IMG/VR virus record: IMGVR_UViG_3300046010_013285
Location: 1-42,437 of that record
Length of the DNA stretch: 42,437 bases
Reading direction: 5' to 3' (one strand)
From: a virus
The notes under the pieces were generated by a model. It worked only from the letters and a program-made list of their open reading frames with translations. It ran no database searches and had not been told where the DNA came from. Positions 865 to 40,616 of the stretch are shown piece by piece. Numbering within the stretch: position 1 is the first letter of the stretch; each line of letters opens with the position of its first letter. The position numbers and the translations under genes were made by a program.

Positions 865-896
865 TTCACATCAATAAAATATTTTATTGATGTGAA
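865..896. promoter_or_regulatory. Perfect 32-bp palindrome overlapping a promoter
   Basis: Bases 865-880 are the exact reverse complement of 881-896, with no spacer (each half contains cacatcaataaaat or its complement). It lies 23 bp before the ATG at 920. A TATAAT at 908-913 and a TTGATG at 887-892 (15-bp spacing) make a plausible promoter whose -35 falls inside the palindrome. That fits an operator, and with this -10 the mRNA would be almost leaderless. Because the element also encodes a protelomerase-like enzyme, a hairpin-telomere resolution site is a second reading. Confidence 0.6.
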
Positions 897-919: not shown

Positions 920-2083
920 ATGGCACACGTCATTAACCTAAAATTCCGGTCGTTAAATGAATTTCCAGTTCAACAGGGAAAAGAGTATCATGTATCAACT
1001 ACTCTTAAGGATTTAGTTGAAGCTAACGGTAAAAGCGAATCTCATCTTTTGTGGAAAATCCCGCTAACTGCCAATGTAAGAAGACCGACAAAAAACTCTG
1101 TTACTGAGTCAATAATTGAGTCCTTAAAAAAGGGCATTTCAGTTATTAGTTCACCACTTCATCTTGCTGCTGATTGCTCAAAAATTACTGCAAGTTTGAT
1201 TAGATTGACGTTTAAAGATTCCGATGGATTGTTAGATGGTGGTCATCGGCTATTAGCTTTTTGCATGGCTGCTAATTTTAAAGAGATAGATATTTCTCAA
1301 GTTTTTGTAAACATCATAATCTATTCAGGTTTTGATGAAATTGAATTAAAAGAAAAGGCGATCGCACTAAATACCAGTAAAGCTGTCTCAAAAATGAGTT
1401 TAGCAAATTATAGCGGTGACTATGACTGGATGAAGCCACAGCTTGAAAAGTACAGAATTATTTATCACGAAGGACAATTTGGAGTGCAGACAACAAATGT
1501 TGATGGGTGCTGTACAATTGCCAGGATTTGCAGTCTTATTTTGGCACTAGATCCAAGTTATTCTCCGTCCAATACCAGCAAAAAGAAGCATCCAAAGCTT
1601 TCAATACACGCCGCTAATTCTATACGTCGAGACTTAGTACCAAAAAAACTTTTTTCGTTGGTTCACGACGCTATAGATATTCAGTCTAAAATATTCAAAA
1701 GGCTAGAAGAACAGCATCATTCTAGTGCTACAGGAACAAGGTTTACAAAAAGTGGAAACGACGCTAGGAAATATACCAAGTTGCCTAACCATGAAATACT
1801 TACCTGTGTGATAACTCAGCAATCTTTGGTTTTCCCGATAATTTCTGGTTTTAGAGTTTTTGTAGAAAAAACTGAAACAGGGGACTACAGATTGCAAGTA
1901 AGCGAGAAAACCAAGATAAGTTTGATCAAAAAAATGTTAACCAGATATTTTCAAATATCTATGCAAGCAAAATACGCAGGACAGCCTTTGTCGTCAATTG
2001 CAAAAGATGATTACGTATGGGCTGAGATGTACGATATTTGCGCTTCACTTGTAAACAATGAAACCCAATCAAGTATGTGCTAA
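920..2083 (+). CDS. AIPR/DGQHR-type domain protein
   Basis: 387 aa, cytosolic. Residues about 50-115 carry the signature of AIPR (abortive infection phage resistance) and DndB/DGQHR-like proteins: 'NVRRPTKNS' (52-59) followed by 'GLLDGGHRLLAF' (103-114), which corresponds to the DGQHR-type loop of ParB/sulfiredoxin-fold proteins. A helical region follows, rich in N, K and S. AIPR-like proteins are found in defence islands and on mobile elements, but their biochemical activity is poorly defined. It has no restriction or DNA-modification partner here. The gene is monocistronic: palindromic promoter region upstream, terminator at 2133-2160 downstream. Confidence 0.6.
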   Translation: MAHVINLKFRSLNEFPVQQGKEYHVSTTLKDLVEANGKSESHLLWKIPLTANVRRPTKNSVTESIIESLKKGISVISSPLHLAADCSKITASLIRLTFKDSDGLLDGGHRLLAFCMAANFKEIDISQVFVNIIIYSGFDEIELKEKAIALNTSKAVSKMSLANYSGDYDWMKPQLEKYRIIYHEGQFGVQTTNVDGCCTIARICSLILALDPSYSPSNTSKKKHPKLSIHAANSIRRDLVPKKLFSLVHDAIDIQSKIFKRLEEQHHSSATGTRFTKSGNDARKYTKLPNHEILTCVITQQSLVFPIISGFRVFVEKTETGDYRLQVSEKTKISLIKKMLTRYFQISMQAKYAGQPLSSIAKDDYVWAEMYDICASLVNNETQSSMC

Positions 2084-9180: not shown

Positions 9181-9181
9181 T

Positions 9182-11277: not shown

Positions 11278-11425
11278 AATTAGCTCCTGTAACTCCTATC
11301 ATTTGTTGAATTTCTTTCTTTGCTTTAGCGTTAAATGCGTTAAAACCAGGTCTTGCGTGCCACTCAGTGTAACTACCATCGGGCTCTAGCTTGCGGACTA
11401 CAACTAATACTTCAATGTTTTGCAT
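11264..11425 (-). CDS. Small strand-rich protein (53 aa)
   Basis: 53 aa (starts MQNIEVLVVVRKLEPDGS). The ATG at 11425 was chosen because GAGG lies 6 nt upstream; an in-frame ATG at 11449 would overlap the previous gene more. The protein looks like one beta sheet followed by a helix and is not recognised. Confidence 0.5.
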   Translation of the reverse strand: MQNIEVLVVVRKLEPDGSYTEWHARPGFNAFNAKAKKEIQQMIGVTGANYERI

Positions 11426-19444: not shown

Positions 19445-19463
19445 ATCATCAGGTGGGATGACG

Positions 19464-19781
19464 CTAAAAGGTAAAAGGCTGCCAGCCCGGCTTTATCCTA
19501 CGCCTTTTAAGACTTTCTTCTTCTTCTTTTAATTGTTCCTCTAAGAAATGTCTGGAATAAGTATCCACCCCATCTTCCATTACGAAGGTGTCGCCTAGAG
19601 GGGCGCGTTTAACTGGGGTGAGTGGTGTCAGCCACTCATGATCGTCAGGGATTTCTTTAATTTCGCCAGCAAGGCGAATATCAGGGGATTTGGAATAACC
19701 AACCAAGTCTCCTTGGTTTGTTGTGTAAGCGTATTCAATTAAAGTATAGTTGTAACCATCTACTGTCATTGTTGTTTCCAT
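19464..19781 (-). CDS. Hypothetical protein (105 aa), starts METTM
   Basis: 105 aa: a beta-rich N-terminal part ('GYNYTLIEYAYTTNQGDLVGY') and a Glu-rich coiled C-terminus ('FLEEQLKEEEESLKRRR'). Its first five codons (METTM) and 39-bp leader are shared with the protelomerase-like gene just upstream, so the 5' end was duplicated with its leader. Role unknown. Confidence 0.5.
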   Translation of the reverse strand: METTMTVDGYNYTLIEYAYTTNQGDLVGYSKSPDIRLAGEIKEIPDDHEWLTPLTPVKRAPLGDTFVMEDGVDTYSRHFLEEQLKEEEESLKRRRIKPGWQPFTF

Positions 19782-19798
19782 TTTATTTTGCTCTTCAG

Positions 19799-19837
19799 TA
19801 TTTACAACAGCAGTTTACCGACGTGCTTAGGTCGCAA
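19799..19837 (-). repeat. 39-bp leader repeat, copy 1
   Basis: Differs from the copy at 20899-20937 at only three of 39 bases, fills the gap just before a METTM-starting gene, and is followed by the same ATG-GAA-ACA-ACA-ATG codons. It contains acgtgcttaggtcgcaa (plus strand). Possible operator or RNA leader. Confidence 0.6.
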
Positions 19838-19843
19838 AGCTAA

Positions 19844-20887
19844 CTATTTACATTTATCAATGTCAATCACTACGACATCTGCGTCATAACAGGTGGCACT
19901 GCTCCTACCCGCTTCTAAGCTATTGTTATGTCCCATTATCTGATTCAATATTTGGTTCATCTTTTGCTTACTACCTTCAAAAAACAAGGGATAAACCACT
20001 TGACCATATATCTGTCTCAAGAGAAGACATTTTTTCCGATCTTTGCCCGCGTGAATCCACTTATCGCCAGTTTTCACATAAGTTGACAAAATGTCCTTAA
20101 CACTTCCGCTTAGATACCTACTGTACTTGTCATGCGACTGTTTAGCCGCAGCACTAACATCACCATCTATCACTGGTATTCGTTTATGCGAGTCCGACAA
20201 CCATTTAATCCCCTCTACTACTTCTCTAGCAGCGCCCATTAAAATGGGAATTTTGTAGCTTTCGGCACTTTCTAAACTATGTTTTTTGAGTTGTCCACTA
20301 AACATAACCCAGTTATCGTCAAGGTATTCAAAATTACCACTACACATAATCTCTGACTGCCTGCGACCGGTTAAACACATTAATGCGATTGCTACTTCAC
20401 TCCAATCTTTACCCAGTCTAGGTAGATTTTGCAATCTCGACTTAGACCACAAGAGTAATGATGAGACCTCAACATCAATTGTATTTTGCTGTCTCAAATT
20501 TAATTTCTTTTGTCCTTCTACACGCTTAGATTTACTATACTCGCTCATTAAGGATTTGACAGACTTGCAAAAAAGTTGATATTGCTGAATTAGCATACCA
20601 TCTGGGAATTGACCTGCTTCTGCACTTGCAGACTTTCCGATGCTTTTCAAAACTGAGCTAACAGCACTGCATACCGAATTAGCATTAGTGCCAAACTCAT
20701 TTTCAATTTCAGCCTTGAACGGTGTGACAATCTCAACCCAGCTAGGTAGAAACAAAACTTTTTGTACTTGTAGCTCCAAAGTGTAGTTTTTTAATTTTGC
20801 ATAGTAAGTATTTGCCATGAGAATGATTTTTCCTTGACAACCCTGATACTCATCATCTACTTCCGCTACTATCATTGTTGTTTCCAT
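19844..20887 (-). CDS. Protelomerase-like tyrosine recombinase
   Basis: 347 aa. 'LMCLTGRRQSEIMCSGNF' (169-186) gives the Arg I box (R176 of TGRRxxE); 'MFSGQLKK' (195-202) gives the strand lysine (K201), spaced 25 residues, as between R275 and K300 of protelomerase TelK. 'LLLRQIYG' (R291) fits Arg II, 'IMGH' (H320) the His, and Y334 could be the nucleophile (14 residues on, a little long). Protelomerases cut a palindrome and reseal both ends as hairpins, keeping linear plasmid prophages such as N15. An ordinary integrase is less likely because of the TGRR/GQLK pattern. GGAG lies upstream of the ATG at 20887. Confidence 0.7.
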   Translation of the reverse strand: METTMIVAEVDDEYQGCQGKIILMANTYYAKLKNYTLELQVQKVLFLPSWVEIVTPFKAEIENEFGTNANSVCSAVSSVLKSIGKSASAEAGQFPDGMLIQQYQLFCKSVKSLMSEYSKSKRVEGQKKLNLRQQNTIDVEVSSLLLWSKSRLQNLPRLGKDWSEVAIALMCLTGRRQSEIMCSGNFEYLDDNWVMFSGQLKKHSLESAESYKIPILMGAAREVVEGIKWLSDSHKRIPVIDGDVSAAAKQSHDKYSRYLSGSVKDILSTYVKTGDKWIHAGKDRKKCLLLRQIYGQVVYPLFFEGSKQKMNQILNQIMGHNNSLEAGRSSATCYDADVVVIDIDKCK

Positions 20888-20898
20888 TTTTTGCTCCT

Positions 20899-20937
20899 TA
20901 TTTACAACAGCAGTTTGATGACGTGCTTAGGTCGCAA
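20899..20937 (-). repeat. 39-bp leader repeat, copy 2
   Basis: Second copy of the leader at 19799-19837 (36 of 39 bases equal), immediately upstream of the protelomerase-like gene, starting 11 bp before its ATG. Confidence 0.6.
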
Positions 20938-20959
20938 TACAACTTACTTTAGTGAGATA

Positions 20960-22015
20960 TTACATTACGCGAAGCCCAAATGGCATCTTAAAAGAATCAC
21001 CGCATTTTTCAGCAGCTAAATTTAACTTTTCCATGATGGGTGCAAAAACTTCATCTCTTATATAAAACTCCTTCTTGGTGTCACCCTCTTTTTTCATTAG
21101 GGTGACATGAGTACTCAATTTCCATCCTTCGCTCCCTTTTGAGGCGAGGGTAATTTCTTCCTGGTTGTCCAGGAAAACCATAAACTTCCCATCTTGACTA
21201 TCCGTGCCATTCATTTCGTGCCGAATAGCAGCACATAATTCCTGAACGTGGCGTGACGTTCTGTTAATAAACAGAACGTATTTGTCTATATCTTCTTTGA
21301 TCCAAATTGATGCAGGTTCAGCATCAATTTTATTAATAACTTTGGATAGTTTGGGGAGGTTAGTTAACCTCCCACTTAACCACTTTTCAAATGGTTGGGC
21401 AGGTTTTTTGCCCTGCTTGATTTTATAGTTTTCCCAAACTTTTCTCTGGGAATTTTTTACTTGGTTTGGATTAATACAGACATTGCCTAGTTTATCATGT
21501 TCAGTGGGGAACACTGTTTTGTCCCAATAAAAGGACTTTCCTTCATGCTCTTTACAGTCAGCACCTAGGACTACTACAAGTCCGTCCTGGATTAGGATGG
21601 ACTCTTCTAACACTCCAAGTGCTAGAAGCTGCTGTTTAGCAACTTCTAAACTTTTTTGTGACTTAGTTGGTGCTTGTGATTGTACTTGCGACTGTTGTTG
21701 TGGCTTGTTCTGTTTAGATTGTTTATCAACAGGTTTTAAATCTGAAATCTCAGATACCAGCTTTCTCCCCACTGCAAAATCTACTGAAACCATTTTGCCC
21801 ATTACGGCAAAAATAGTTCCTTCACCCCAGCGAGGGTGAATTACTTGCATCCTGACCACTAATTTTAACTCTGTTGTCACTTTCTTTATCTCCTCTTGCT
21901 CTAATTGAGCATCAATTTCCATCAACTCATCTACCCAGCGGTAGATGTTTTGTTGCCCTCTCCCGACGCGGGAGATCAAGTTGATCAATACCTGTCTTCT
22001 TTTTACTAAGTCCAT
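20960..22015 (-). CDS. Hypothetical protein with Tudor-like motif (351 aa)
   Basis: 351 aa from ATG 22015 (AGGG 4 nt upstream; a GTG precedes it). A helical N-terminus is followed by 'HPRWGEGTIFAVMGKMVSVDFAVGRKLV' (about 60-87), a UvrD/PcrA C-terminal Tudor-like pattern seen in RNA-polymerase- or DNA-binding proteins. A Gln-rich linker (about 96-125) separates the 225-residue C-terminal part, which has no recognised domain. Lies just upstream of the protelomerase-like gene; a linked role in telomere or replication functions is inference. Confidence 0.5.
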   Translation of the reverse strand: MDLVKRRQVLINLISRVGRGQQNIYRWVDELMEIDAQLEQEEIKKVTTELKLVVRMQVIHPRWGEGTIFAVMGKMVSVDFAVGRKLVSEISDLKPVDKQSKQNKPQQQSQVQSQAPTKSQKSLEVAKQQLLALGVLEESILIQDGLVVVLGADCKEHEGKSFYWDKTVFPTEHDKLGNVCINPNQVKNSQRKVWENYKIKQGKKPAQPFEKWLSGRLTNLPKLSKVINKIDAEPASIWIKEDIDKYVLFINRTSRHVQELCAAIRHEMNGTDSQDGKFMVFLDNQEEITLASKGSEGWKLSTHVTLMKKEGDTKKEFYIRDEVFAPIMEKLNLAAEKCGDSFKMPFGLRVM

Positions 22016-22076
22016 CACACCCTCCCGCGTCGTTTGTTTTTCTATATTTCCATTATGTATGGATAGAATGAAATTG

Positions 22077-22291: not shown

Positions 22292-22657
22292 TTAATTATT
22301 GATGTCTGCTAATTCTATCATGTCATCTTTCAATTCACCGCTTAAATATTCAACATACTTAGCAGTAATTAAAGAGATTAAGCGTTGCTGTTCTATGGGT
22401 GGTAGTCCCAACGCTACGCCTAAAACATCTTCTGCCGTTTTTGGTTTTGCTGCACCTAAACCCAAATATTGATCTAACTCAAAACCGGGACGGCAACCCA
22501 TAGCCAAACACAAATCTACGTATTTCTCTAGTCCAGGCGACACTTTATCCGCTTGCCATTCGCTCAAAGTTCCTTGAGAGACTTTAGATTTTTTAGCAGC
22601 CTGATTCATACTAGAAGCCCGGCTACATATAGACTTGATTAATCTTCCTGCTTTCAT
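22292..22657 (-). CDS. HTH (Cro/CI-type) regulator
   Basis: 121 aa. Residues about 15-45 ('SMNQAAKKSKVSQGTLSEWQADK') form a clear Cro/CI-type helix-turn-helix; the C-terminal half is helical. Second of two HTH genes after the divergent operator, likely involved in lysogeny or plasmid control. Three bp separate it from the HTH gene at 22661. Confidence 0.65.
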   Translation of the reverse strand: MKAGRLIKSICSRASSMNQAAKKSKVSQGTLSEWQADKVSPGLEKYVDLCLAMGCRPGFELDQYLGLGAAKPKTAEDVLGVALGLPPIEQQRLISLITAKYVEYLSGELKDDMIELADINN

Positions 22658-22660
22658 ACT

Positions 22661-23011
22661 TTAATTCTCAGTATTGTTCAAAAGAGGTAAGTCTGCGTAA
22701 ATATCTGTAGTGTTATTTGTGATATTGTCAGTCTCAGATGCAATATCAATGAAGTCGTAAATATCTAAAGTCTTACCTTTATCGTCAAAAATTAAACCTG
22801 ATGATGCGATCGCTTCAAGGGTATTAAAGTTGGGCATTACAGAGGAGTTTTCAATGCAGCTAATGGTTTTAAAGTGAACCGAATTACCTTCAGTAGAACT
22901 CAAGTCAGCAAGTTCCCTTAAGGTCAGTTGCCTGGCTTCGCGGGATCTGCGGACTATGCCACCTAATTTAGCTAGTCCCTTTTTGGTCCAAATCTTTCTA
23001 ACAGCTTTCAT
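22661..23011 (-). CDS. HTH (XRE/CI-type) repressor-like protein
   Basis: 116 aa from ATG 23011 (other in-frame starts: 23032 ATG and 23038 GTG; the operator overlaps the longer ones). HTH at about 22-53 ('ARQLTLRELADLSS', 'TISCIENSS'). Short for a CI repressor and lacking a peptidase domain. It is the first gene leftward of the divergent operator (23012-23135) and the likely master repressor. Confidence 0.65.
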   Translation of the reverse strand: MKAVRKIWTKKGLAKLGGIVRRSREARQLTLRELADLSSTEGNSVHFKTISCIENSSVMPNFNTLEAIASSGLIFDDKGKTLDIYDFIDIASETDNITNNTTDIYADLPLLNNTEN

Positions 23012-23135
23012 ATTTGTGTAACACAATAACATAATCACACAATAGATTAAAAATGATAAAGATAACGTAAAGTTATATATTTCTTTTGTAAATTACAATA
23101 GATTATGTGCTACAATTAAATTGTGTTACACACAA
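23012..23135. promoter_or_regulatory. Divergent promoter/operator region
   Basis: Between the repressor-like gene (start 23011) and the RHH gene (23161). ttgtgtaacacaa (23014-23026) and tgtgttacaca (23122-23132) are inverted, near-palindromic copies of one motif. 'cataatc' (about 23030-23036) mirrors 'gattatg' (23101-23107), and acaatagatta occurs twice (about 23038-23048 and 23095-23105). The symmetric layout is that of a phage genetic switch. Confidence 0.65.
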
Positions 23136-24124: not shown

Positions 24125-24593
24125 ACGAAAAATCACCAAAATCAAAACTAAAAGAGGGGACACTGAAAGTATAAGTATCGCCTATATGGTTGTTAACGAA
24201 AACAATCAGGAAGAAAATTTAAACTGCTCCTTAACAGGAAAAGAAGAAGCCAGAATTGAATTTTACGATGGCTTGGATGGACTCCGAATAATGTTAGTGG
24301 AAGCAATTGGATTAAACCCACATATCTGGCTTGAGCAGGGGCAAGTCATTGGACTTTCCATCAAATATCAAGAGGAAAGTATAGGCATCACAATCACAGG
24401 TAAGTGTGAAATAGAAGGAAGATATGCCTGTCCAACCACACCTTATTTATTAATTGCTGACCAGGAAAGTGTTGAGTTTAAGCTTATCAAAAATGTTGTC
24501 AATGAAGCATTCAAATATTTAGATGGTGAGCGCAAGGATTGGAAACAGCAATCATTATTTGACCAGGAAGAGTGTAGCTATGAATCACTTTAA
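24117..24593 (+). CDS. Hypothetical protein (158 aa)
   Basis: 158 aa, beta-rich and acidic ('ESISIAYMVVNENNQ', 'VIGLSIKYQEESIGI') with a short helical C-terminus. No family recognised. Member of the rightward early unit; overlaps both neighbours. Confidence 0.5.
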   Translation: MNERKITKIKTKRGDTESISIAYMVVNENNQEENLNCSLTGKEEARIEFYDGLDGLRIMLVEAIGLNPHIWLEQGQVIGLSIKYQEESIGITITGKCEIEGRYACPTTPYLLIADQESVEFKLIKNVVNEAFKYLDGERKDWKQQSLFDQEECSYESL

Positions 24594-24687
24594 TATTTGG
24601 CTTTTTAGCCTTTACACCATTGGGATTGAGACAATCTTAATAACAATTATTTCCCTTTGTTATTTAATCATTCAATCCCATAAATAA
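24580..24687 (+). CDS. 35-aa single-TM peptide
   Basis: A 35-aa frame (starts MNHFNIWLFSLY, ends IIQSHK) that is nearly all hydrophobic (residues 5-31). It overlaps the last codons of the preceding gene. Probably a small membrane peptide of the early unit; holin-like or superinfection-type roles are conceivable but unsupported. Confidence 0.45.
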   Translation: MNHFNIWLFSLYTIGIETILITIISLCYLIIQSHK

Positions 24688-24695
24688 ACAGAAAA

Positions 24696-24716
24696 AGTCC
24701 GCTGACAAGGCGGACT
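24696..24716. promoter_or_regulatory. 7-bp hairpin
   Basis: agtccgc (24696-24702) pairs with gcggact (24710-24716). On the minus strand it precedes TTTTT; on the plus strand it ends 42 nt before the start at 24759. An mRNA processing/stability hairpin or antisense terminator. Confidence 0.4.
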
Positions 24717-24758
24717 CAAAGGAGACAAAAGGAAAACACAACATCATTCTTTAATAAT

Positions 24759-24977
24759 ATGTCAAAACAAACAGAACCGCAACCAACCAATTACAAAACA
24801 GGAGACAAAATTAAATACAAGCATCTTAATCATGGATGGATAGATGCAATATTTGAAGGATTCCATACTCCAGAATTAGCCCCTACAGGCTCTAAATGGA
24901 GTTTCATGGAAGTTTCTATCAATGGCAAATTACACAAGGCTTACTCTTTAAATCAGATTAAAATTAGTGAATCATGA
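24759..24977 (+). CDS. Small SH3/KOW-like protein (72 aa)
   Basis: 72 aa: 'YKTGDKIKYKHLNHGWIDAIFEGFH' (12-36) followed by further strands resembles a compact SH3/KOW-type barrel. Overlaps the next gene by 4 bp. Not recognised as a known protein. Confidence 0.5.
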   Translation: MSKQTEPQPTNYKTGDKIKYKHLNHGWIDAIFEGFHTPELAPTGSKWSFMEVSINGKLHKAYSLNQIKISES

Positions 24978-25195
24978 AAAGTTGCTTAAATTGTATTTAC
25001 TCAGGGTTTTTAATTGAGCGCAACAATGAATTTTATAGCTACGAAGGAGACTGCGACAATGATCAATTCCCGACAGCAGCTTTGGTTAATCTCTGGCAAT
25101 GTCAAAAAGACGACAAAGATGAATTAAGGGAAGAAATAGATTTAATCTTTGAGCAAATAGCTACTAAGTGTGAAGCTTACATACCAACTACATAA
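24974..25195 (+). CDS. Small Cys-rich protein (73 aa)
   Basis: 73 aa. 'CLNCIYSGF' (4-12) provides a Cys-x2-Cys, with further Cys near 27, 43 and 66 that could bind zinc. The C-terminus is acidic. Last gene before a terminator. No family recognised. Confidence 0.5.
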   Translation: MKSCLNCIYSGFLIERNNEFYSYEGDCDNDQFPTAALVNLWQCQKDDKDELREEIDLIFEQIATKCEAYIPTT

Positions 25196-25206
25196 AACAA
25201 TCAACT

Positions 25207-25236
25207 AATAGCCGCTTAAACAAGTGGCTATTTTAT
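25207..25236 (+). terminator. Rho-independent terminator
   Basis: aatagccgctt (25207-25217) pairs with aagtggctatt (25222-25232; one G-U), then TTATT. It closes the 23161-25195 unit. Confidence 0.75.
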
Positions 25237-25341
25237 TGTCATTCATTTACCCGACTTACTGAGTATGAAAAAATCTTTTTTATTTCTATTGACAAGTTAC
25301 CAGGGAATAAGATATATTAAATATGTTGAGTTAAGAAACCG

Positions 25342-25542
25342 ATGGCAAATAAAAACGCTATCCCTCCGAAATGCCACCAATTCAAACCAGGGTGGCGTTC
25401 TGGGAAGACAAAAAACATCAAGCTTCCCATTGTTTTGGAAGCCGACATCAAGGCGATCGCCCAATGCCTTGATCAAAATCCCAGTATCGCCAATCAAGTT
25501 TTGGCTTTTGCCAAAGCACTGGCAGAACAGACAGAAAATTAA
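25342..25542 (+). CDS. Small plasmid-type RHH protein
   Basis: 66 aa with 'FKPGWRSGKTKNIKLPIVL' (14-32) then a helix ('DIKAIAQCLDQNPSIANQVLAFAKALAEQ'). This Trp-x-Ser-Gly-Lys-Thr plus Arc-like strand-helix is recurrent in small cyanobacterial plasmid regulators. Probably binds DNA near the replication genes. Two overlapping longer frames were rejected as shadows. Confidence 0.6.
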   Translation: MANKNAIPPKCHQFKPGWRSGKTKNIKLPIVLEADIKAIAQCLDQNPSIANQVLAFAKALAEQTEN

Positions 25543-25544
25543 AG

Positions 25545-25572
25545 CCCTCGTACTGCTGAACACAGTCGAGGG
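25545..25572. promoter_or_regulatory. Inverted repeat after 25342-25542
   Basis: ccctcg plus actg (from 25545) pair with cagt plus cgaggg (to 25572), with one bulge. No T tract. Could be an operator for the following replication genes. Confidence 0.4.
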
Positions 25573-25615
25573 ACAGCCCCTACCATTTCTTAAATCTCTT
25601 AGGAGCAATTTAACT

Positions 25616-25681
25616 ATGAATCATTTTTCAATTTTTGTCAATAAGACAAGTGCGCTGTTGCACGCCCATGGAGGTGTGTGA
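25616..25681 (+). CDS. 21-aa upstream reading frame
   Basis: A 21-aa frame (starts MNHFSIFVNK, ends GGV) preceded by taggagc; its stop overlaps the ATG of the initiator-like gene (TGATG). Likely a translationally coupled leader peptide that sets initiator synthesis. Confidence 0.5.
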   Translation: MNHFSIFVNKTSALLHAHGGV

Positions 25682-26973
25682 TGGGAGAAACAATCAGAAT
25701 ACAGCACAGCAAAGATTACACTGTAATAGCCAACGCGGCTATTAGAGATACGCGGTTGAGCTTCAAAGCGCGTGGGCTACATCATTTGCTTCTCTCTTAT
25801 CCTGATGGGTGGGAGATTAATACCGAACATTTGTCTGACCAGTCTGAATCTGACGGAAAAACATCTGTTTGTTCAGCATTAAAAGAATTAGAAAAGTTTG
25901 GGTATTTAACTCGTGAGCAAGCACGAGTAAACGGAAGAATGGCAGGATGGAAATCTGTTATTCGGGAAATACCATCAAGCGAACCAAGCAAAAAAACTCA
26001 GAAAGCCTGTACAGCAAGGGTAAAACCGGAATCAGGTTTTCCAGCTACGGAAAATCCAGCTACGGAAAATCCAGCTACGGAAAATCCAGCTACGGAAAAT
26101 CCAGCTACGGAAAATCCAGCTACGGAAAATCCAGATATGGAAAATCCAGCTACGGAAAATCCAGCTACGGAAAATCCAGCTACGGAAAATCCAGCTACGG
26201 AAAACCTGCTGCATAATAAATACTTAATCCAAGAAGTATTTAAGAAAGAAATATTTAAAGAAGAAAGCCTCCCTGCTAAAGAGAATTTAAAAGAAGAGAA
26301 AACACAACAGATATCTGCTAACTCTGATTTAAAGGCAAATATTTCTCTCAAGCAGATAAATCCTCATGAAGACCAGGATACGCCCGCCGCGCCGCTTAAA
26401 AATGTATACGCCCAGGCAAAGAATGTTTGGGATTTAATAGATACATTTTTATTAAGCCCTGAACTAGCTGATGCAGTCATTCCTAGCGAGTTAAGCCTCG
26501 TTTACAAGGAAAAGAATCAATGGAATGGCTGGCTGTGGCCTTGGCGGTCGAAAACCATGGACAAAACCTTCCAAAACTTTAACCCTGCTGTAGTCCAGAA
26601 AATAGCTACAGACTTAGCCAGACGAGATAAAGCCACGCCAGACCAAAAATATGGACACGCCATGGCCACTATTGGGATGTGGGAAAAAACCAAAGGGGGC
26701 TGGCAGAATCTTGTGAATTGGTGCGATCGCCCTCAACCCACCCAGCCAGCAAGCAATGACACCACAGAACCGGAAACAGAGATACCGGAATACTTTTACA
26801 AGTGGTCAGAGGATGTGCATCTGATGATTTATGAGAACGACTTTAGGAAATGTCATTCTTTACAAGCGTTTTATGACAAACGGAAAGACCACAAAGCGTG
26901 GCTAATGTTTGCAAAGCAAAAGCATCCTGACTGGGATTGGTCGCTTGGTCAAAAGCCAATAATCAAATTTTAA
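25681..26973 (+). CDS. Replication initiator-like protein with PATEN repeats
   Basis: 430 aa. Residues about 1-100 are a winged-helix domain of the phage/plasmid initiator type ('IANAAIRDTRLSFKARGLHH' then 'LSDQSESDGKTSVCSALKEL'). Residues 121-175 are eleven P-A-T-E-N units (one PDMEN), encoded by a 15-bp DNA repeat. The C-terminal part ('WDLIDTFLLSPELADAVIP', 'YKWSEDVHLMIYENDFRK') is helical. As in lambda O, the gene may contain its own origin (26041-26310). DnaB follows 39 bp later. ATG chosen with GGAGG 6 nt upstream. Confidence 0.6.
   Translation: MGETIRIQHSKDYTVIANAAIRDTRLSFKARGLHHLLLSYPDGWEINTEHLSDQSESDGKTSVCSALKELEKFGYLTREQARVNGRMAGWKSVIREIPSSEPSKKTQKACTARVKPESGFPATENPATENPATENPATENPATENPATENPDMENPATENPATENPATENPATENLLHNKYLIQEVFKKEIFKEESLPAKENLKEEKTQQISANSDLKANISLKQINPHEDQDTPAAPLKNVYAQAKNVWDLIDTFLLSPELADAVIPSELSLVYKEKNQWNGWLWPWRSKTMDKTFQNFNPAVVQKIATDLARRDKATPDQKYGHAMATIGMWEKTKGGWQNLVNWCDRPQPTQPASNDTTEPETEIPEYFYKWSEDVHLMIYENDFRKCHSLQAFYDKRKDHKAWLMFAKQKHPDWDWSLGQKPIIKF
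26041..26205 (+). repeat. Eleven tandem 15-bp direct repeats
   Basis: Unit CCAGCTACGGAAAAT, 11 in-register copies; one variant reads CCAGATATGGAAAAT and the last ends AAAAC. It encodes PATEN in the initiator-like protein. Confidence 0.9.
26041..26310. other. Candidate replication origin inside the initiator gene
   Basis: The iteron-like array (26041-26205) is followed by an AT-rich stretch (about 26213-26310) with tracts such as aataaatacttaatcc, inside an initiator-type gene upstream of dnaB. This is the layout of the lambda O/ori region. No DnaA box was examined with a tool, so this is inference. Confidence 0.5.
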
Positions 26974-27012
26974 GTCCCATCTTTAAATCCAGTTTTAGCA
27001 AGAGAAATTATC

Positions 27013-28395
27013 ATGAACTTAGATTTCAGTGCAGATACCCTAATCAACCGTCTTCCTCCCCAAAATATTGACGCTGAAGAAGTGATCTTGGGTGGCATCC
27101 TTCTTGACCCTGGTGCAATTGAAAGAGTAATCACAAGATTACCTTGCGAAGCTTTTTATATAAATGCACATAAAACCATATTTAAGTGCATGACAGAATT
27201 GCATTTAACCGGCAAGCCGACCGACTTAATTACTGTAGCAAATAGTTTAGACGATCAAGGCGTTTTAACTCACATTGGAGGGAGAAATAAGCTTACCACA
27301 TTAATAGACCACACTGTTTCTGCTGTCAATATTGACGCTTTAGCGGAAATCATATACGAAAAGTACCTCCGCAGGGAATTGATCAGGGTGTCGAATCAAA
27401 ATATTAAGCTTGCTTATGCAACAGAAATAGAACTCCAAAAAGTCTTGGAACAGGCTCAAAAAGCAGTCTTTGACCTAAATCTCTCATTATCTGATGAACG
27501 CCCGGAATTGCAGCACGTGAATGAAGCTATGCAAGAGATGTATAGCGATATGGAAAAGAAAATTTCTGGGGAAGTCACTCCTATTTCCAGTGGCTTTTAT
27601 GATGTAGATGCAATGACATCAGGCTTTGAACCAAATCAATTCATCATTGTTGGTGGTCGCCCTGGTATGGGCAAAACTGGCTGGGGCTTAGACGCAGCCT
27701 GGAATATAGCGTCTAGTCAGCAAGGGCAACATCGTCCTGTGTTCTTTTTCTCTCTTGAGATGGATAAAATACAGTTGGCACGACGATTAACTAGCAGATT
27801 AGCCTCTATTGAGGGTAGCTATTTAAAGAACCCAAGAATGATTAGTCAAACTCAAATGACAAGCATTGTCACAGCCATGAATACCGCTGAAGAATCTAAG
27901 TTATACATCTGTGACCATTCTCAGATGGATATGCTTGACATTACTAGTAGCATTAGGCGGGCAATAGCCCGTACTGGGGAAAAACCCGCTGCTATATTTG
28001 TGGATCATATTCACATCTTGGCAGGAACAGAAGAAGACGCTAAAGATGAGCAAAGTAAAATATCCAAAGCGTCTAGGCTTTTGAAAGGGCTTTCATCATC
28101 CTCTACTGGGTTCAGCTGCCCAGTGTTTGGATTAGCCCAACTTAATAGGGCTGTTGAAGGGAGACAGAATAAGCGCCCAATGCTATCCGACTTAAGAGCG
28201 TCGGGATCTTTGGAACAAGATGCGGATATGGTATTCCTCTTGTACCGTGATGAATATTACAACCCTGATACATCAGATAGAGGTATGGCAGAACTGATCG
28301 TAGCCAAGCAGCGTGATGGCTGCACGGGTACAATTAAGCTTCTGTTTGATTCTACCTACACTCACTTCAAAAACTTGTCTCGCCAATCTTATTGA
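27013..28395 (+). CDS. dnaB: Replicative DNA helicase DnaB
   Basis: 460 aa. N-terminal domain starts 'LPPQNIDAEEVILGGILLD' (14-32); Walker A 'GGRPGMGKT' (214-222); Walker B 'AIFVDHIHIL' (about 327-336); 'LAQLNRAVEGRQNKRPMLSD' and 'SGSLEQDADMVFLLYRDEYY' are the usual C-terminal motifs. It unwinds DNA as a hexamer at the fork. Complete and normal length, no intein. It follows the initiator-like gene by 39 bp; together they form the replication module. Confidence 0.95.
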   Translation: MNLDFSADTLINRLPPQNIDAEEVILGGILLDPGAIERVITRLPCEAFYINAHKTIFKCMTELHLTGKPTDLITVANSLDDQGVLTHIGGRNKLTTLIDHTVSAVNIDALAEIIYEKYLRRELIRVSNQNIKLAYATEIELQKVLEQAQKAVFDLNLSLSDERPELQHVNEAMQEMYSDMEKKISGEVTPISSGFYDVDAMTSGFEPNQFIIVGGRPGMGKTGWGLDAAWNIASSQQGQHRPVFFFSLEMDKIQLARRLTSRLASIEGSYLKNPRMISQTQMTSIVTAMNTAEESKLYICDHSQMDMLDITSSIRRAIARTGEKPAAIFVDHIHILAGTEEDAKDEQSKISKASRLLKGLSSSSTGFSCPVFGLAQLNRAVEGRQNKRPMLSDLRASGSLEQDADMVFLLYRDEYYNPDTSDRGMAELIVAKQRDGCTGTIKLLFDSTYTHFKNLSRQSY

Positions 28396-28422
28396 TATAT
28401 CAATAAATGCAAATATTAATTA

Positions 28423-28454
28423 ATTACCCACTTGTATCAAAGTGGGTAATTTTA
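28423..28454 (+). terminator. Rho-independent terminator
   Basis: attacccact (28423-28432) pairs with agtgggtaat (28441-28450), then TTTTAT. It ends the dnaB transcript. Confidence 0.8.
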
Positions 28455-28500
28455 TCTGTATATCTATAAACATATTTTTATTCCTATAGGCGTTTAATAT

Positions 28501-28531
28501 TTGATTTTATCATGCTAAATTGATTTTATCA
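28501..28531 (+). promoter_or_regulatory. Direct repeat before the 28558 gene
   Basis: ttgattttatca occurs at 28501-28512 and 28520-28531 (19-bp period), before the small RHH-like gene at 28558. Possible operator pair. Confidence 0.5.
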
Positions 28532-28557
28532 GCACACAATTACAAAGTGAGAATTTT

Positions 28558-28779
28558 ATGAGCGGAAAGCCAAAATACGGCGAAGCTAAGACTTCTAAGC
28601 AAATCATGATTACTAATGACGCTAAACAAATCTATCGTGCTTATGCACAGTATATAGGCACTAACAACAACGAATTAATTGAACAAATGGCACGAAACCC
28701 TGATGTACTAAGGGGTCTAGCTGATTTTGTGGAAAATAAAAAATATTTTTCAAAACCACTTGACAACTCTATTCTGTAA
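28558..28779 (+). CDS. Small RHH-like protein, paralogue of 22077-22283
   Basis: 73 aa. 'SKQIMITNDAKQIYRAYAQYI' then 'NELIEQMARNPDVLRGLADFVE' matches the 68-aa protein at 22077. Behind its own direct-repeat region. Likely a DNA-binding regulator, possibly binding the same sites. Confidence 0.55.
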   Translation: MSGKPKYGEAKTSKQIMITNDAKQIYRAYAQYIGTNNNELIEQMARNPDVLRGLADFVENKKYFSKPLDNSIL

Positions 28780-28873
28780 TGATATATTAGATATATAAAC
28801 AAAAACGACCGCCCCTCCGACCAAGAAGTAAGCAGTCGCTTTGTTTTTATCCCATACACAGGAATAGTTTAGT

Positions 28874-29689
28874 ATGACATATCCCAAATTTTCTGTCAAG
28901 TTTCTTTTAAAGAAAGGAATTAGCTACTGCAAGATGGTAGCTAAAGATTTGGGCATCAGCCCAGAGGGTGACAAAAGACAAGTTTTTACTTGGGCTGACG
29001 CTATAGTCAGCCACCAAGCTAATTTACAACCTGTAGAAACTCAAAAGCAGCAAGTAGTTATCGAATTCAATAACGGCTTTGACTCCTGCGATTTGGCAGG
29101 GTACTCAGTCAAGGATCTAGATGGAAACATCATAAGAGACAGTTTCCGCACCTATATGGCTGCTGAACGCTGGGCTGCTGACAGATTTGAAATACTGGAT
29201 CAACAATCAATTGCTCAACAAGAGATTGTTGATCTCTTGGAAAGTCAAATCCAAGAAGTCACAGAAAAAGTATCAATAATTGAGATAGACTTTGGTTACG
29301 CCGAAGTCTGCCAAGGTAAAACTGTTGTCGCTACCATTAGTCACAACTTTGACAATGGCAACTGGGAAGTCCAGTTCTCTGAAACATTTAAAAGCTTTTT
29401 GACTTACGCAGAAGCAGAAGCCTTTGCAATTAATTACATAGATGATGAAAGAGGTAGTGGTAGGATTTTACCTATATCTCAGGATATCGAAGATATCAAC
29501 TACAATATCGAAGACAATAAAATTGTAGACCCGCTGGGTGAGCGCTACACAGTCCGAGTTAAAGGACATTTAGCCGGCAATATCTGGCTAGATGTTGATA
29601 AAGGCTGGACTATTGGAGTTACTTACTTTGATAGTCCGATAGAGGCCGCTAAGGCATTAGCAAAACTAACAATAAAGGAGTTGGTGTGA
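28874..29689 (+). CDS. Hypothetical protein with SAP-like start (271 aa)
   Basis: 271 aa. Residues 5-50 ('LLKKGISYCKMVAKDLGISP' then 'RQVFTWADAIVSHQ') look like the SAP-type DNA-binding helix pair found in cyanobacterial plasmid/phage proteins. Two or three beta-rich repeats follow ('YSVKDLDGNIIRDSFRTYMA' and 'EVQFSETFKSFLTYAEAEA' share a layout). Not recognised. Its stop overlaps the next ATG. Confidence 0.5.
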   Translation: MTYPKFSVKFLLKKGISYCKMVAKDLGISPEGDKRQVFTWADAIVSHQANLQPVETQKQQVVIEFNNGFDSCDLAGYSVKDLDGNIIRDSFRTYMAAERWAADRFEILDQQSIAQQEIVDLLESQIQEVTEKVSIIEIDFGYAEVCQGKTVVATISHNFDNGNWEVQFSETFKSFLTYAEAEAFAINYIDDERGSGRILPISQDIEDINYNIEDNKIVDPLGERYTVRVKGHLAGNIWLDVDKGWTIGVTYFDSPIEAAKALAKLTIKELV

Positions 29690-29853: not shown

Positions 29854-29894
29854 GATTATTCAACTTGTGCGAAGAAACCTTTTATATCTACTTT

Positions 29895-31719: not shown

Positions 31720-31745
31720 AGCGATCGCACCACAACGTGATCGCT
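31720..31745. promoter_or_regulatory. HIP1-containing inverted repeat
   Basis: agcgatc (31720-31726) pairs with gatcgct (31739-31745), loop 12 nt. No T tract; weak terminator or processing site between the genes ending at 31702 and starting at 31767. Confidence 0.4.
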
Positions 31746-31766
31746 CTTCACCCCATAGCTAAAATT

Positions 31767-32522
31767 ATGTCTAGCATAAATACTGGTATTGAGTGGACAG
31801 ATAAAACCTGGAATCCTACTACAGGTTGTGACAAAGTTAGCCCAGGCTGCATACATTGTTACGCAGAAGCAATAACTAAAAGGTTTCCTAAAACCTTTAA
31901 AAACGGATTTGACTTAACTCTATACCCAGAAAGACTGAAAGAGCCTTCAAAATGGCATACTCCCAGTAGAATTTTTGTTAATAGCATGAGTGATCTTTTT
32001 CATAAAGAAGTACCTTTGGATTTCGTTCAAGCAGTATTTGACGTGATTCAAGACACGCCTCATCATGTCTACCAGATATTAACTAAAAGACCGGAACGAT
32101 TAGTTGAGTTAGCACCACACTTAAAGTTTCATAAAAATATCTGGTTAGGTGTATCAGTAGAAAACCAAAGTTACGTTTCTCGTGTTGACCTGCTACGTCA
32201 AGTGCCAGCAAGTGTACGTTTTCTGTCTTGTGAACCATTATTAAGTTCATTAAAACTTGACCTGACAGATATTGATTGGGTCATCGTTGGTGGTGAATCT
32301 GGACCAAGCCACCGTCTGATGAAAATTGAGTGGGCTGAAGACATCCGTGATCAATGTCAGCAAGCACAAGTAGCGTTTTTCTTTAAGCAAGTCGGTGGTA
32401 AAACTCCTAAATCTGGAGGTAACCTTTTAAGCGGACAATTGTTACAGCAAATGCCCGCTGCTTGGGAACAGCATCAAAGTATTTGGATAAAACAGCCTAA
32501 GCAAGCTGCTTTATTCAACTAA
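31767..32522 (+). CDS. Phage Gp37/Gp68-like (DUF5131) protein
   Basis: 251 aa from ATG 31767 (the frame also opens at 31737). 'GIEWTDKTWNPTTGCDKVSP' then 'GCIHCYAE' gives C21-x6-C28-x2-C31, and 'FVNSMSDLFHKEVPLD', 'ILTKRPERL', 'WLGVSVENQ', 'VGGESGPSHRLM' follow the family order. The Cys pattern suggests a radical-SAM-like iron-sulfur protein; substrate unknown. Common in phages and plasmids. Followed by a terminator. Confidence 0.85.
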   Translation: MSSINTGIEWTDKTWNPTTGCDKVSPGCIHCYAEAITKRFPKTFKNGFDLTLYPERLKEPSKWHTPSRIFVNSMSDLFHKEVPLDFVQAVFDVIQDTPHHVYQILTKRPERLVELAPHLKFHKNIWLGVSVENQSYVSRVDLLRQVPASVRFLSCEPLLSSLKLDLTDIDWVIVGGESGPSHRLMKIEWAEDIRDQCQQAQVAFFFKQVGGKTPKSGGNLLSGQLLQQMPAAWEQHQSIWIKQPKQAALFN

Positions 32523-36273: not shown

Positions 36274-38703
36274 TTAATTTTGACCTATTACTAATGATAC
36301 TGTAGCCGAGCCAGGATTAGAGAAATGAGCAACCCCTGATCCATAAGTAGGGGACAATCCAGAGCCTTCCAACCAAGTGATTTGCTCTGTGAGTAAACTC
36401 AAATTTTCACCAATATGTTTTAAGAAAATTAATATTAAATCCTGTGATATTGTTTCGCCGTTTAAGTCATAGGAAGTGCTAAAAAATTCCCTGTACTCTT
36501 GAAAGATTTGTAGCAAATTTATTTGAATACTTTTACTAAAAACAAAGCTACAAATAGGATCACCTAAAGATTGCAATCCTGGCAAAACAACTGCCGTCAT
36601 TGCACTACTTAAAAGATTCCCTTTTAAAGAACTTGCAGGACTGGATAAAGTCACGAATATTCTGTTATAAAATAAATCTGTCACGTTGCCAGCACTGTCG
36701 TACAAATAAATGTTGCCGTCAGTATCAGATATCAGCCCCAATGTAGTAGCAGCTAAAGTTCTAGTTTCAGTGGTCACAGGAAATTTATTATAGTCTCTGA
36801 TATTAAGTAATTTTGTAGTGCTACTTCCTACATAAATTATTTCAGCAGTATCTATGAATGCCAATGAATCAGGATTTGATAAAGTATCAAAGGTTTTTGT
36901 ATTATCTATTGCATAAGTAGTGTTTGTCCCAGCCCGCACATATCCATAAACTTTGTTATCAGTTGCACTAGTCACATATAGGGAAAATCTATTGTGAGTC
37001 ATTGCACTAGGCGCATTGATAGTTAAGGATTGTAAAATCGTATTATTTGCCACGCTGATCACAGAGATGCTATTGCTAGTCCTGTTTGCGCAAAATAAGC
37101 ATCCATCTCCTACCATTAAATCCATTGGGTTTGTTCCTACAGCGATCGCAGTTGTAAAAGTTATTGACAAAGGATCAACAATATTCCACACAGTTACTTC
37201 ATTATTTCCGGGGTGTGACACATAAAGATTATTTCCTGATACAACAACATCATGGCAATTAATTTTCCCAGATACAATAGAAGAAATAATGATCCCTGAT
37301 GAAGCGTTGATAACTAATATTTCACTCTTATTTGATTGAGTGGCAAAAATCAAATCCTTGCTAGTATCAAGATAAATATTGTTCAAAGATACATTGATGG
37401 ATTTTACCGCAGCTTGACTAGAAATAGATACAAAAAATAGCTTATCTGTGCTAACTAAATAAACTAAATTGAAAGGATCATATTCTTCCCTTAAACTAGG
37501 TTTAAATCCCAAACTATCAATATTGCTGCTAGTTAATTTTAATCTTCTGAAAATTACTTCTACTGGGATATCAGATACAGCGTTTAAATATTTGGGGAAT
37601 ATTTTGGTATTGTTAGGCTTATCTATGTACAATTCTTTAGTTAGAATTGCAAAGGCAAATACCTCCTTGAATGGAATTAAAGGTAAAGTGTTTGATGCGG
37701 CACTAAATAATTTTAAAGGTGAAGTGTCCGTCCCCAGCTTAACAACAGAACAACCATACCTGCTAAGAATACCCCCTGTATTTCCTGATGTTTCAATCTC
37801 AAAATTAAAGGGTAATGGTATGGGATTTCTTTCTACAGTTGGGCGATATTCACTAGTGGGGATATCTGCAAATAGAATCCATCGGTGCTGTCCATTTTGA
37901 TTTTCATCCCGTGCGTAAACATAAAATCTAGCACCACTACCATCGAAACTTCCTATCTCAATTCCAAACATTACTACCAAAGAAAAATTAATATTTAATC
38001 TTGATAGTCCAGTCCCGTCTAATCTGTCTTTAAAAGCAGAACGCTCGTAAATGTTTTCCTTTGTAACTGTATCAATAGTATATCTTTGAATAATACTAAT
38101 AAGGTTGTCTTTGACTTGAATAAACCAGCCTGATTGATAGTTGAATAAACCAGCCTTAAAAGTGACAGCATTGCCAATACTAGCAACTTCCATCTTAATC
38201 CCAAAGCTGATAAAAACATTATTTGCAGCATCACAATCAAATAGTTGTTTGGAAGTCAAAACAACATATTTAGATGAAGTCGTGGCACTATTCCCAATAA
38301 TTAATTGGGTAGCATTATCTTTATATTCAGTGTAAGATTCTATTCCTGCATAAGCAGCATTTAATCCTACACCTGTTCCCCATAGTTTTTGACTATTAGG
38401 GGTATTTTCTTCATTAGTTAAGGACAGCCCAATATCCCATTTTGTTGAGTCTGTTCCATAACCATTAGTATCAGCAAATAGCAGTATTCGTTCGTCTTGA
38501 ATTGGAAACCCAAATTGGCTAGAAGATACTTGGCTGTCAGGTAAATTAGCGGAGTTTTTTCTTCTTTGCACACCAATGAAATAATCATTGGCTAAAGTGA
38601 TGCTATAATGCCGACTATCAGGGTCAGACAATGCTTGACTTCCTAAATCTTTAGGATCTGATCCAAAGCCTTCAGGGAAATAAATCTTTTGTATTTCTTC
38701 CAT
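36274..38703 (-). CDS. Tail protein with beta-propeller-like repeats
   Basis: 809 aa from ATG 38703, which overlaps the stop of the gene at 38703-40616 (TAATG). An N-terminal baseplate-like part is followed by a YVTN/propeller-type region (about 460-660) with repeats such as 'VSGNNLYVSHPGNNEVTVW' and 'VGDGCLFCANRTSNSISVI'. The C-terminus is helical. Propellers on tails often bind glycans. Co-transcribed with the neighbours. Confidence 0.6.
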   Translation of the reverse strand: MEEIQKIYFPEGFGSDPKDLGSQALSDPDSRHYSITLANDYFIGVQRRKNSANLPDSQVSSSQFGFPIQDERILLFADTNGYGTDSTKWDIGLSLTNEENTPNSQKLWGTGVGLNAAYAGIESYTEYKDNATQLIIGNSATTSSKYVVLTSKQLFDCDAANNVFISFGIKMEVASIGNAVTFKAGLFNYQSGWFIQVKDNLISIIQRYTIDTVTKENIYERSAFKDRLDGTGLSRLNINFSLVVMFGIEIGSFDGSGARFYVYARDENQNGQHRWILFADIPTSEYRPTVERNPIPLPFNFEIETSGNTGGILSRYGCSVVKLGTDTSPLKLFSAASNTLPLIPFKEVFAFAILTKELYIDKPNNTKIFPKYLNAVSDIPVEVIFRRLKLTSSNIDSLGFKPSLREEYDPFNLVYLVSTDKLFFVSISSQAAVKSINVSLNNIYLDTSKDLIFATQSNKSEILVINASSGIIISSIVSGKINCHDVVVSGNNLYVSHPGNNEVTVWNIVDPLSITFTTAIAVGTNPMDLMVGDGCLFCANRTSNSISVISVANNTILQSLTINAPSAMTHNRFSLYVTSATDNKVYGYVRAGTNTTYAIDNTKTFDTLSNPDSLAFIDTAEIIYVGSSTTKLLNIRDYNKFPVTTETRTLAATTLGLISDTDGNIYLYDSAGNVTDLFYNRIFVTLSSPASSLKGNLLSSAMTAVVLPGLQSLGDPICSFVFSKSIQINLLQIFQEYREFFSTSYDLNGETISQDLILIFLKHIGENLSLLTEQITWLEGSGLSPTYGSGVAHFSNPGSATVSLVIGQN

Positions 38704-40616
38704 TATTGCACCCCATAGATTAAAGACACAGAAGCGATCGCACTGGACGCAGCGAGAGAGCGGCAAATTATTAGCAAGCAGTCACCTGGAGTATTATCAG
38801 TAATTGGAGTTTCTCCCCTGCCTAAAAGTTCTCTTTGTGGATCAAAAATTTCTAATAAATCAATATCCACAGAAGCATTTGCCCCTATATAAAAAGCACC
38901 AATTAGTTTTCCTGCGATCCCACTGGGATACCCTGAATTACTATTGATAGTTCCTGTGAAGCTAGTGGTATTAGCAACTACTTTTAAGTTGTCTGCCGCC
39001 AATTGCCCCGTATACCATCCTGTGCTTGGATTTAAAGATCCAATGATTTGAGCAACGGACCCCTTGACAAAATAAAGTTCTGTATTTTGAGTAGATGTAG
39101 CCATTAATTTATACGGATAGACCCGTGATCTTTGTGGTCTCTTTTCATTAATTGCACTATTCCAAATCCAAGGCTTGACAGCCAAAGCCAACATAGGAGT
39201 ATAAACACCATTAGATACAGTTATCCCTGTGGCACTAGCGGATTCAATTTTAGCAGGACGCGGATCGCCACCATCAATCCATACCGAAACACCAAAGCGA
39301 CGTAAGAAAGCACTACCATCAACTGTGCTATTTCCTGCTCTTTTCCCGATCAAGTAAGTCACGGGCATATCGGGGCTGGACATTGAAGCCACAGGTAAAG
39401 TATCCCCAATTCTAATTTCATGCCCCTTAACCCAGCGTGTCCCGCCATTGTAAGGAGCATTCTGATCCGGCATATAGATTAAACACCGACCACCCGATCC
39501 GCCGTACCAACTACGCTGAATCAAGAACATGGCTAAATTAGCCACTTCATTAAAATAAAGAGTTGCGTTAGTTCCTATAGAAGTAGTTGTATTACTGATA
39601 GTTATATTTGAATTTGTAACATTGATAATCACTGTACCTATCGGTATTCCATCCCCCCGCACACTCATACCAGCTATCAAGATTTGAGTATTTCCGCTAA
39701 AAGTATTACAAGTAATCGTTGTACTGGAATTATTGTAACTACAGCCTGTAATTTCATAGCTAGTGGTAATTGCTGATACCTGCCTTGCGCTAGTTCCCCG
39801 CACTTTATCAATACCAGGAATACCGTCACCAATTAATCCAGTATATTTGTCACAATTAAATGTACTTTGGTTCGGAACTACAGAGGTGTAACTCAGTTCC
39901 TCCCAAGTATCCGTATCCATGTAAGTAATATTTGCACCGTTACTGCCAACCAAATAGCTGGGACGATATAGTAAACTATTACCTACAGAAACAGGTGGAT
40001 TGGCGGAAGATGACATATTTGTGACTACATCAGCAGTAACTTGTGGTGGTGTTTTAGGAACTGACACTGGTATAGCTGATGTCCTTCTGAAAAAATACAA
40101 ATAATTATCCCATGGGAGAATGTTTGTATTGCCTAAATTCACTCCTCTATTCTTTGTCATCAGCCGCCAACCGTACCCATCTCGCCTGGTAAATTCTCCC
40201 CATTGAACAATGGAATTGGCGATCGCCGGACCCATAGCCATTTGTACAGCTTGGGATATAGATATCTGTTTCCCAGGCTGATACTTAAAAGCGAATTGTG
40301 TTTGGTGCGTTGAAAAGCTACCGGATGATGGTACTGTCAGTTCAATGCCACCAATACCAGGAATGTAATTGACAGTCCCAGCATTAGACCAGATATTCAA
40401 ATCAATCCCATAAGAAGGAAGCTCTTGTAATAAAAATTGTCTGCGCTCAGTAGTCTCAAAGCCAAACATAGATTCACGCACTTCTGAGCGCGATGTAGCT
40501 GCATCCACTACGTATAATTCACCCTGATCAGTAGGTAGAGTTACTGAAATAGACTTATCAGCAGACTTTCGACCGGGTTCAATTGGGATGGAACGAGAAA
40601 CAATTACATCAGCCAT
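38703..40616 (-). CDS. Tail structural protein (637 aa)
   Basis: 637 aa, beta-rich, with 'QLLGRGETPITDN'-like loops and a segment 'GGRCLIYMPDQNAPYNGGTRW'. Its N-terminus ('VIVSRSIPIEPGR') is plain. No known fold was recognised; position between the upstream baseplate-type gene at 40643 and the propeller protein supports a tail or baseplate role. Ends exactly where the next ATG begins. Confidence 0.55.
   Translation of the reverse strand: MADVIVSRSIPIEPGRKSADKSISVTLPTDQGELYVVDAATSRSEVRESMFGFETTERRQFLLQELPSYGIDLNIWSNAGTVNYIPGIGGIELTVPSSGSFSTHQTQFAFKYQPGKQISISQAVQMAMGPAIANSIVQWGEFTRRDGYGWRLMTKNRGVNLGNTNILPWDNYLYFFRRTSAIPVSVPKTPPQVTADVVTNMSSSANPPVSVGNSLLYRPSYLVGSNGANITYMDTDTWEELSYTSVVPNQSTFNCDKYTGLIGDGIPGIDKVRGTSARQVSAITTSYEITGCSYNNSSTTITCNTFSGNTQILIAGMSVRGDGIPIGTVIINVTNSNITISNTTTSIGTNATLYFNEVANLAMFLIQRSWYGGSGGRCLIYMPDQNAPYNGGTRWVKGHEIRIGDTLPVASMSSPDMPVTYLIGKRAGNSTVDGSAFLRRFGVSVWIDGGDPRPAKIESASATGITVSNGVYTPMLALAVKPWIWNSAINEKRPQRSRVYPYKLMATSTQNTELYFVKGSVAQIIGSLNPSTGWYTGQLAADNLKVVANTTSFTGTINSNSGYPSGIAGKLIGAFYIGANASVDIDLLEIFDPQRELLGRGETPITDNTPGDCLLIICRSLAASSAIASVSLIYGVQ

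Follow-up and report, generated by a model that had tools for sequence, protein, structure and literature searches.

The 42,437-nucleotide stretch of viral DNA analysed here (positions 1 to 42,437 of IMG/VR record IMGVR_UViG_3300046010_013285; contig G000, hereafter the window) almost certainly carries a gene for a protelomerase, and very probably belongs to a tailed phage of a cyanobacterium. Because the enzyme is kin to those of hairpin-ended plasmids and because the phage is analogous to N15, it seems likely that the phage persists as a linear, hairpin-ended prophage. Hairpin plasmids have already been reported in Nostoc; the window appears to represent the corresponding intact phage.

Identity of the protelomerase

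19844..20887, minus strand: protelomerase (telomere resolvase), 347 amino acids; called from the PF16684 match, the TelK match, the catalytic alignment and the tree

The open reading frame (ORF) spans exactly this interval, on a strand that the initial annotation did not give, and residues 160-323 of its product match the Pfam family PF16684 (ResT-TelK_cat) with E=1.5e-23 and a score of 83.8 bits, where the cut-off is 27. No integrase family is among the Pfam matches of the protein, and PF00589 (Phage_integrase) has no match in the window record. A search of the PDB with the protein gave TelK (2v6e) as the sole credible relative (E=1.9e-6), with integrases absent among the matches. To judge from these sequence comparisons, the resemblance to protelomerases is not due to chance, since the PF16684 score is far over the cut-off and TelK is matched without integrases. 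The initial annotation had called the product a protelomerase while leaving open that integrases might match it best; the call is borne out by both searches, the alignment and the tree, and the best matches are members of the ResT/TelK family.

An alignment with TelN (N15), TelK (phiKO2), the enzyme of Valp1 and some 20 relatives from cyanobacteria places R176, K201, R291, H320 and Y334 in the R-K-R-H-Y catalytic columns, confirming the residues that had been proposed. R176 lies in a TGRR box and K201 in a GQLK box, and their spacing of 25 residues equals that of TelK, as had been claimed. Y334, put forward earlier as a possible nucleophile, sits in the nucleophile column (ENTQLHYKQF in TelN/TelK). 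The same catalytic set is common to TelK/TelN, TelA and ResT, but the window enzyme ends 13 residues past the nucleophile and is without the C-terminal region of TelN and TelK. An AlphaFold2 model built from 3 sequences only reached a pLDDT of 51.7.

Relatives of the enzyme on hairpin-like replicons

The window enzyme pairs in the tree, at 99/97 support, with the enzyme of a sister phage contig, G001, to which it is 88% identical; both ORFs are intact. The two belong to a clade of six rows with 100/100 support, together with the enzymes of Fischerella NIES-4106 plasmid8, Pelatocladus (a truncated copy), Nostoc linckia z4 and Tolypothrix PCC 7712 plasmid12. TelN, TelK and the Valp1 enzyme form a separate group, also with 100/100 support. 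PF16684 is present in 13 of the 292 cyanobacterial genomes sampled, and "protelomerase family protein" is an established annotation term for genes of plasmids in cyanobacteria. A control genome named Synechococcus elongatus also has a PF16684 match above the cut-off.

The Fischerella plasmid8 record (AP018306.1) has an identical 40-bp palindrome, TTACGTACACCCCGGTCATCGATGACCGGGGTGTACGTAA, at each end. Tolypothrix plasmid12 (NZ_CP063797.1) contains an 8.25-kb mirror image (24239-32470), centred at 28354.5 on CACCCCACTCATCGATGAGTGGGGTG, that includes a mirrored copy of the protelomerase gene. The Pelatocladus contig (14.3 kb), which has the truncated enzyme copy, mirrors around a Fischerella-type site, and the Nostoc linckia z4 contig has terminal inverted repeats of 234 bp. 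Such mirror images and duplicated terminal palindromes make the replicons of this clade look hairpin-ended, and the simplest reading of the mirrors would be assembly through a closed hairpin. Nostoc C052 pC052_H (NZ_CP040280.1) has mirror centres at 14180 and 38103, both at AAATTAACRGAC, a sequence that matches the terminal AAATTAACRGAC of the Nostoc N6 linear plasmids, for which hairpins were inferred from reads (PMC5987646). Mirror duplications or doubled terminal palindromes are thus present in published cyanobacterial plasmid records from Fischerella, Tolypothrix, Nostoc C052 and Pelatocladus, and the first two of these are recorded as circular.

The phage and its host

36274..40616, minus strand: virion structural genes, 830 and 637 amino acids (phrog_1645, E=9.8e-17 and 5.6e-22)
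31737..32522: DUF5131 gene, with DNA up to 84% identical to cyanobacterial genomes

Window positions 779-41692 are syntenic, in reverse, with G001 (93,412 bp) at 75-95% identity. Genes of G001 include those for the terminase large subunit (4.3e-141), a major head protein, tail, central fibre and antirepressors, along with a 4415-amino acid ORF that we take as the tape measure. Virion and packaging genes are thus found on the same replicon, with the terminase, head and tail genes seen in G001 and structural genes in the window itself. The earlier placement of the enzyme in a phage holds, and the virion genes of G001 make this a tailed one.

A third contig, G002, joins both ends of G001 and covers about half of the genome. 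Because G002 bridges these ends, we put the genome at about 96 kb, of which the window is a 42-kb piece. The ends of the window were considered as telomeres and rejected: they have no terminal repeats, a 63-bp tandem repeat occupies the right end, and the sequence in which the left end breaks off is also present in G002. The right end can be attributed to a long tandem array at 41805-42437, where a coiled-coil gene of the tail region has repeat units of 42, 63, 84 and 147 bp. When 19.5 kb of the window was compared with plasmids by Megablast, no match was obtained.

The HIP1 sequence (GCGATCGC) occurs 23 times in the window, against 0.18 occurrences expected from base composition. This excess, the DUF5131 match and an AIPR-family gene whose plasmid homologues are almost exclusively in Nostocales point to a host that is probably a heterocyst-forming, Nostocales-like cyanobacterium, which supports the cyanobacterial host proposed initially. 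Among 391 genomes of the order there is no close prophage, and the best enzyme match is 43%. The likeness of the DUF5131 gene in several cyanobacteria is read as recent host-phage transfer.

Regulatory and replication genes

22292..23038, minus strand: two Cro/CI-type helix-turn-helix (HTH) regulators, 121 and 125 amino acids, a putative lysogeny switch (HTH_3 and phage repressor PHROGs)
25678..26973, plus strand: replication initiator, 431 amino acids, winged helix, DnaD/O-like (phrog_4707, E=4.7e-29)
27013..28395, plus strand: DnaB-like replicative helicase (PF03796, E=4.3e-75)

The HTH_3 matches of the two regulators (6.5e-4 and 2.6e-4) are slightly under the curated cut-offs. The pair is divergent from plus-strand genes that begin at 23107, and so the divergent repressor switch described in the initial annotation is present. 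The plasmid-type initiation proposed alongside it stands in part: an initiator and a DnaB-like helicase are present, but the initiator is nearer the phage O/DnaD type than specifically plasmid-type. Within the initiator gene (26040-26204), Tandem Repeats Finder reports a 15-bp unit, TCCAGCTACGGAAAA, repeated eleven times in frame, and these repeats could be iterons, as in lambda O. A second, related repeat array is found in G001 at 56905-57001, outside the initiator gene.

A candidate telomere-resolution site

865..896, no strand: perfect loopless 32-bp palindrome TTCACATCAATAAAATATTTTATTGATGTGAA; candidate telomere-resolution site or, alternatively, an operator or 5' untranslated region (5'-UTR) element of the 387-amino acid gene
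920..2083, plus strand: AIPR-family gene, 387 amino acids, downstream of the palindrome; homologues on Nostocales plasmids

A palindrome scan of the window yields 865-896 as the sole outlier, with a score of 16 against 10 for the runner-up. Control scans single out telRL in N15 (22 versus 10) and phiKO2 (19 versus 9) and, in Valp1, a palindrome (27 versus 9) located at the protelomerase gene. The palindrome is identical in G001 and G002, within a run of about 88 nucleotides that is identical across all three phages, and no copy with up to 2 mismatches occurs in the 391 genomes of the order. Its AT-rich centre is no objection, because a similarly AT-rich, perfect 34-bp palindrome (8985-9018) is located about 70 bp before a protelomerase-like ORF (9089-11350) in a non-cyanobacterial viral contig, L065. 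We regard 865-896 as a plausible telomere-resolution site, although our confidence falls somewhat short of calling it probable.

Two palindromes nearer the enzyme gene, 21256-21279 and 21354-21373, were rejected because their centres are non-symmetric and they are within coding sequence. For the AIPR gene, the window copy shares 98% identity with that of G002 and 95% with that of G001, while identity between G002 and G001 is only 75-87% over much of the remainder of G002. This might reflect either recent exchange or strong conservation.

Proposed life cycle and alternative explanations

In the life cycle we propose, the phage DNA would circularise after infection. A dimer of the 347-amino acid enzyme would then bind the palindromic site and, as expected from the family and from its catalytic residues, Y334 would attack both strands about 6 bp apart. 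Joining each strand back onto its partner would close the ends as hairpins and yield a linear molecule. The initiator and DnaB would replicate this molecule from an internal origin, with the enzyme resolving the replicated telomeres, and the HTH pair would repress the lytic genes. The full proposal, namely an intact temperate cyanophage maintained as a hairpin-ended linear plasmid by an enzyme that acts, without ParAB, at the AT-rich 32-bp palindrome 19 kb away, is one that we advance tentatively.

The initial annotation had envisaged an N15-like linear phage-plasmid in a cyanobacterium. The protelomerase, the tailed phage and the cyanobacterium stand, but a telomere is neither the end point nor a mirror centre of any of the three contigs, each of which runs through the palindrome into unique sequence. 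Other observations also weigh against our proposal. The palindrome is 19 kb from the enzyme gene, whereas in N15 and phiKO2 telRL precedes the gene by about 165 bp. A promoter-like TTAACA-17-TATTAT is found just before the palindrome, which would occupy approximately +8 to +40 of the AIPR mRNA. Neither the plasmid telomere core CACCCC..TCATCGATGA nor CATCGATG is found in the window or G001. ParA (PF13614) was not found in the window, G001 or G002, and the ParB-like PHROG matches in the scanned set are probably a methyltransferase-linked nuclease instead. Finally, the gene slot around the enzyme differs between the contigs.

20866..20937, minus strand: 5' leader of the protelomerase gene with its first codons (METTM), from self-comparison, comparison with G001 and reading of the sequence
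19464..19781, minus strand: 105-amino acid gene after the protelomerase, with leader and METTM start in common with the protelomerase gene
20960..22018, minus strand: 352-amino acid gene with a GTG start, directly upstream of the protelomerase in the same orientation; no family in Pfam or PHROG

The leader at 20866-20937 recurs at 19760-19837 as a direct repeat of approximately 78 bp, which forms the leader of the 105-amino acid gene; the repeat and both METTM starts are present in the window and in G001. Synteny with G002 skips from window position 19457 to 21891, with the 352-amino acid gene reduced to its N-terminus, and no protelomerase was detected in the matching slot of G002, a contig that nevertheless keeps the palindrome. 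Because of this slot and the duplicated leader, which flanks the enzyme gene as after insertion of a module, the gene looks like an exchangeable module.

These points count for an alternative in which the protelomerase is an acquired accessory gene of a phage that is lytic or a circular phage-plasmid rather than a linear hairpin plasmid, the enzyme either has no essential substrate or works on plasmids in the same cell, and 865-896 is an operator or 5'-UTR element. The latter function is suggested by the 88 identical nucleotides and the promoter-like site, and the slot in G002 is syntenic on both sides. The missing ParA and the lack of a telomere break in the three contigs also fit. However, a tyrosine integrase (PF00589) and a serine recombinase (PF00239) are likewise absent from the three contigs, records that may be incomplete. 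The five catalytic residues are kept, and the ORF has stayed intact in two phages whose enzymes are 88% identical. None of nine AIPR homologues in cyanobacteria has a long palindrome upstream, which weakens the operator reading without excluding it, and the palindrome is absent from the genomes of the order. Moreover, G002 represents only about half of its genome, so an enzyme gene might be present elsewhere in that phage. On this evidence we judge an accessory role unlikely.

The phage might instead be a linear, hairpin-ended phage-plasmid whose resolution site is elsewhere, either outside the window or in a sequence without a long perfect palindrome. The site adjoins the enzyme gene in proteobacterial telomere phages and in L065, rather than being 19 kb away, and the nearest plasmid relatives have a different, G+C-richer common core. 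Yet G001 is contiguous over 93 kb and its ends are bridged by G002, and no other loopless palindrome is prominent. The runner-up in G001, at 64808-64841, lies between convergent genes and was judged to be a bidirectional terminator. We consider a different site improbable.

Protelomerases and tyrosine recombinases share a catalytic fold and residues, but the idea that an ordinary phage tyrosine integrase has been mistaken for a protelomerase is refuted on sequence evidence by the Pfam and PDB results and by the grouping with plasmid protelomerases, and it deserves virtually no weight.

Relation to known systems

A hairpin-ended linear prophage, our preferred reading, would bring the phage close to two known groups of replicons. 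The first consists of the Nostocales hairpin plasmids (Nostoc N6 pNPM8-10, Fischerella plasmid8, Tolypothrix plasmid12 and Nostoc C052 pC052_H), which share their host group with the phage; the Fischerella and Tolypothrix plasmids carry protelomerases of the same clade. These plasmids have no virion genes in the annotation examined, whereas the phage has terminase, head and tail genes, and they carry a CACCCC/ATCGAT telomere core that the phage is without. One of them, pNPM9, carries a disrupted terminase, and an earlier study guessed that hairpin plasmids of cyanobacteria are what remains of phages (PMC5987646). A phage that has virion genes and an enzyme of the plasmid clade makes this guess testable. 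Another linear cyanobacterial element with a terminase-like gene is the 37-kb "incision element" of Anabaena variabilis. No sign of hairpins was seen in the study that describes it, which also lists a XerD-like recombinase (PMC4148955).

The claim that this lifestyle would be new to cyanobacteria survives only for phages. Hairpin-ended linear plasmids are already documented in these organisms (PMC5987646; mentioned in PMC3558466), but in our literature search we came across no description of an intact phage of cyanobacteria that carries a protelomerase. If our reading is true, the phage would be the viral counterpart of the Nostocales hairpin plasmids, and telomere phages would exist beyond Proteobacteria. 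It might also represent a route to lysogeny without integration in filamentous cyanobacteria. The very short protelomerase and its candidate site are suited to in vitro testing.

The second group comprises the telomere phages N15, PY54, phiKO2 and the VP882 type, whose prophages are linear plasmids and which resemble the window phage in being tailed and in having a ResT/TelK-family protelomerase, an HTH switch, their own replication genes and no integrase. They differ in that their hosts are Proteobacteria rather than cyanobacteria, their enzymes belong to another clade and are longer (631-640 versus 347 amino acids), and their genomes are smaller (40-55 kb versus about 96 kb). Because ParA was not found and the candidate site is differently placed, we do not file the window phage as a proven telomere phage, although it probably works like one. 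Telomere phages have been described from Proteobacteria; a 2025 survey enlarged their range by 13 genera and names Enterobacteriaceae, Pseudomonas and Stutzerimonas (PMC12042878). Contig L065 (IMGVR_UViG_3300021394_000002; 49 kb, 57% GC), which has a distant protelomerase and no HIP1 sites, is another candidate telomere phage.
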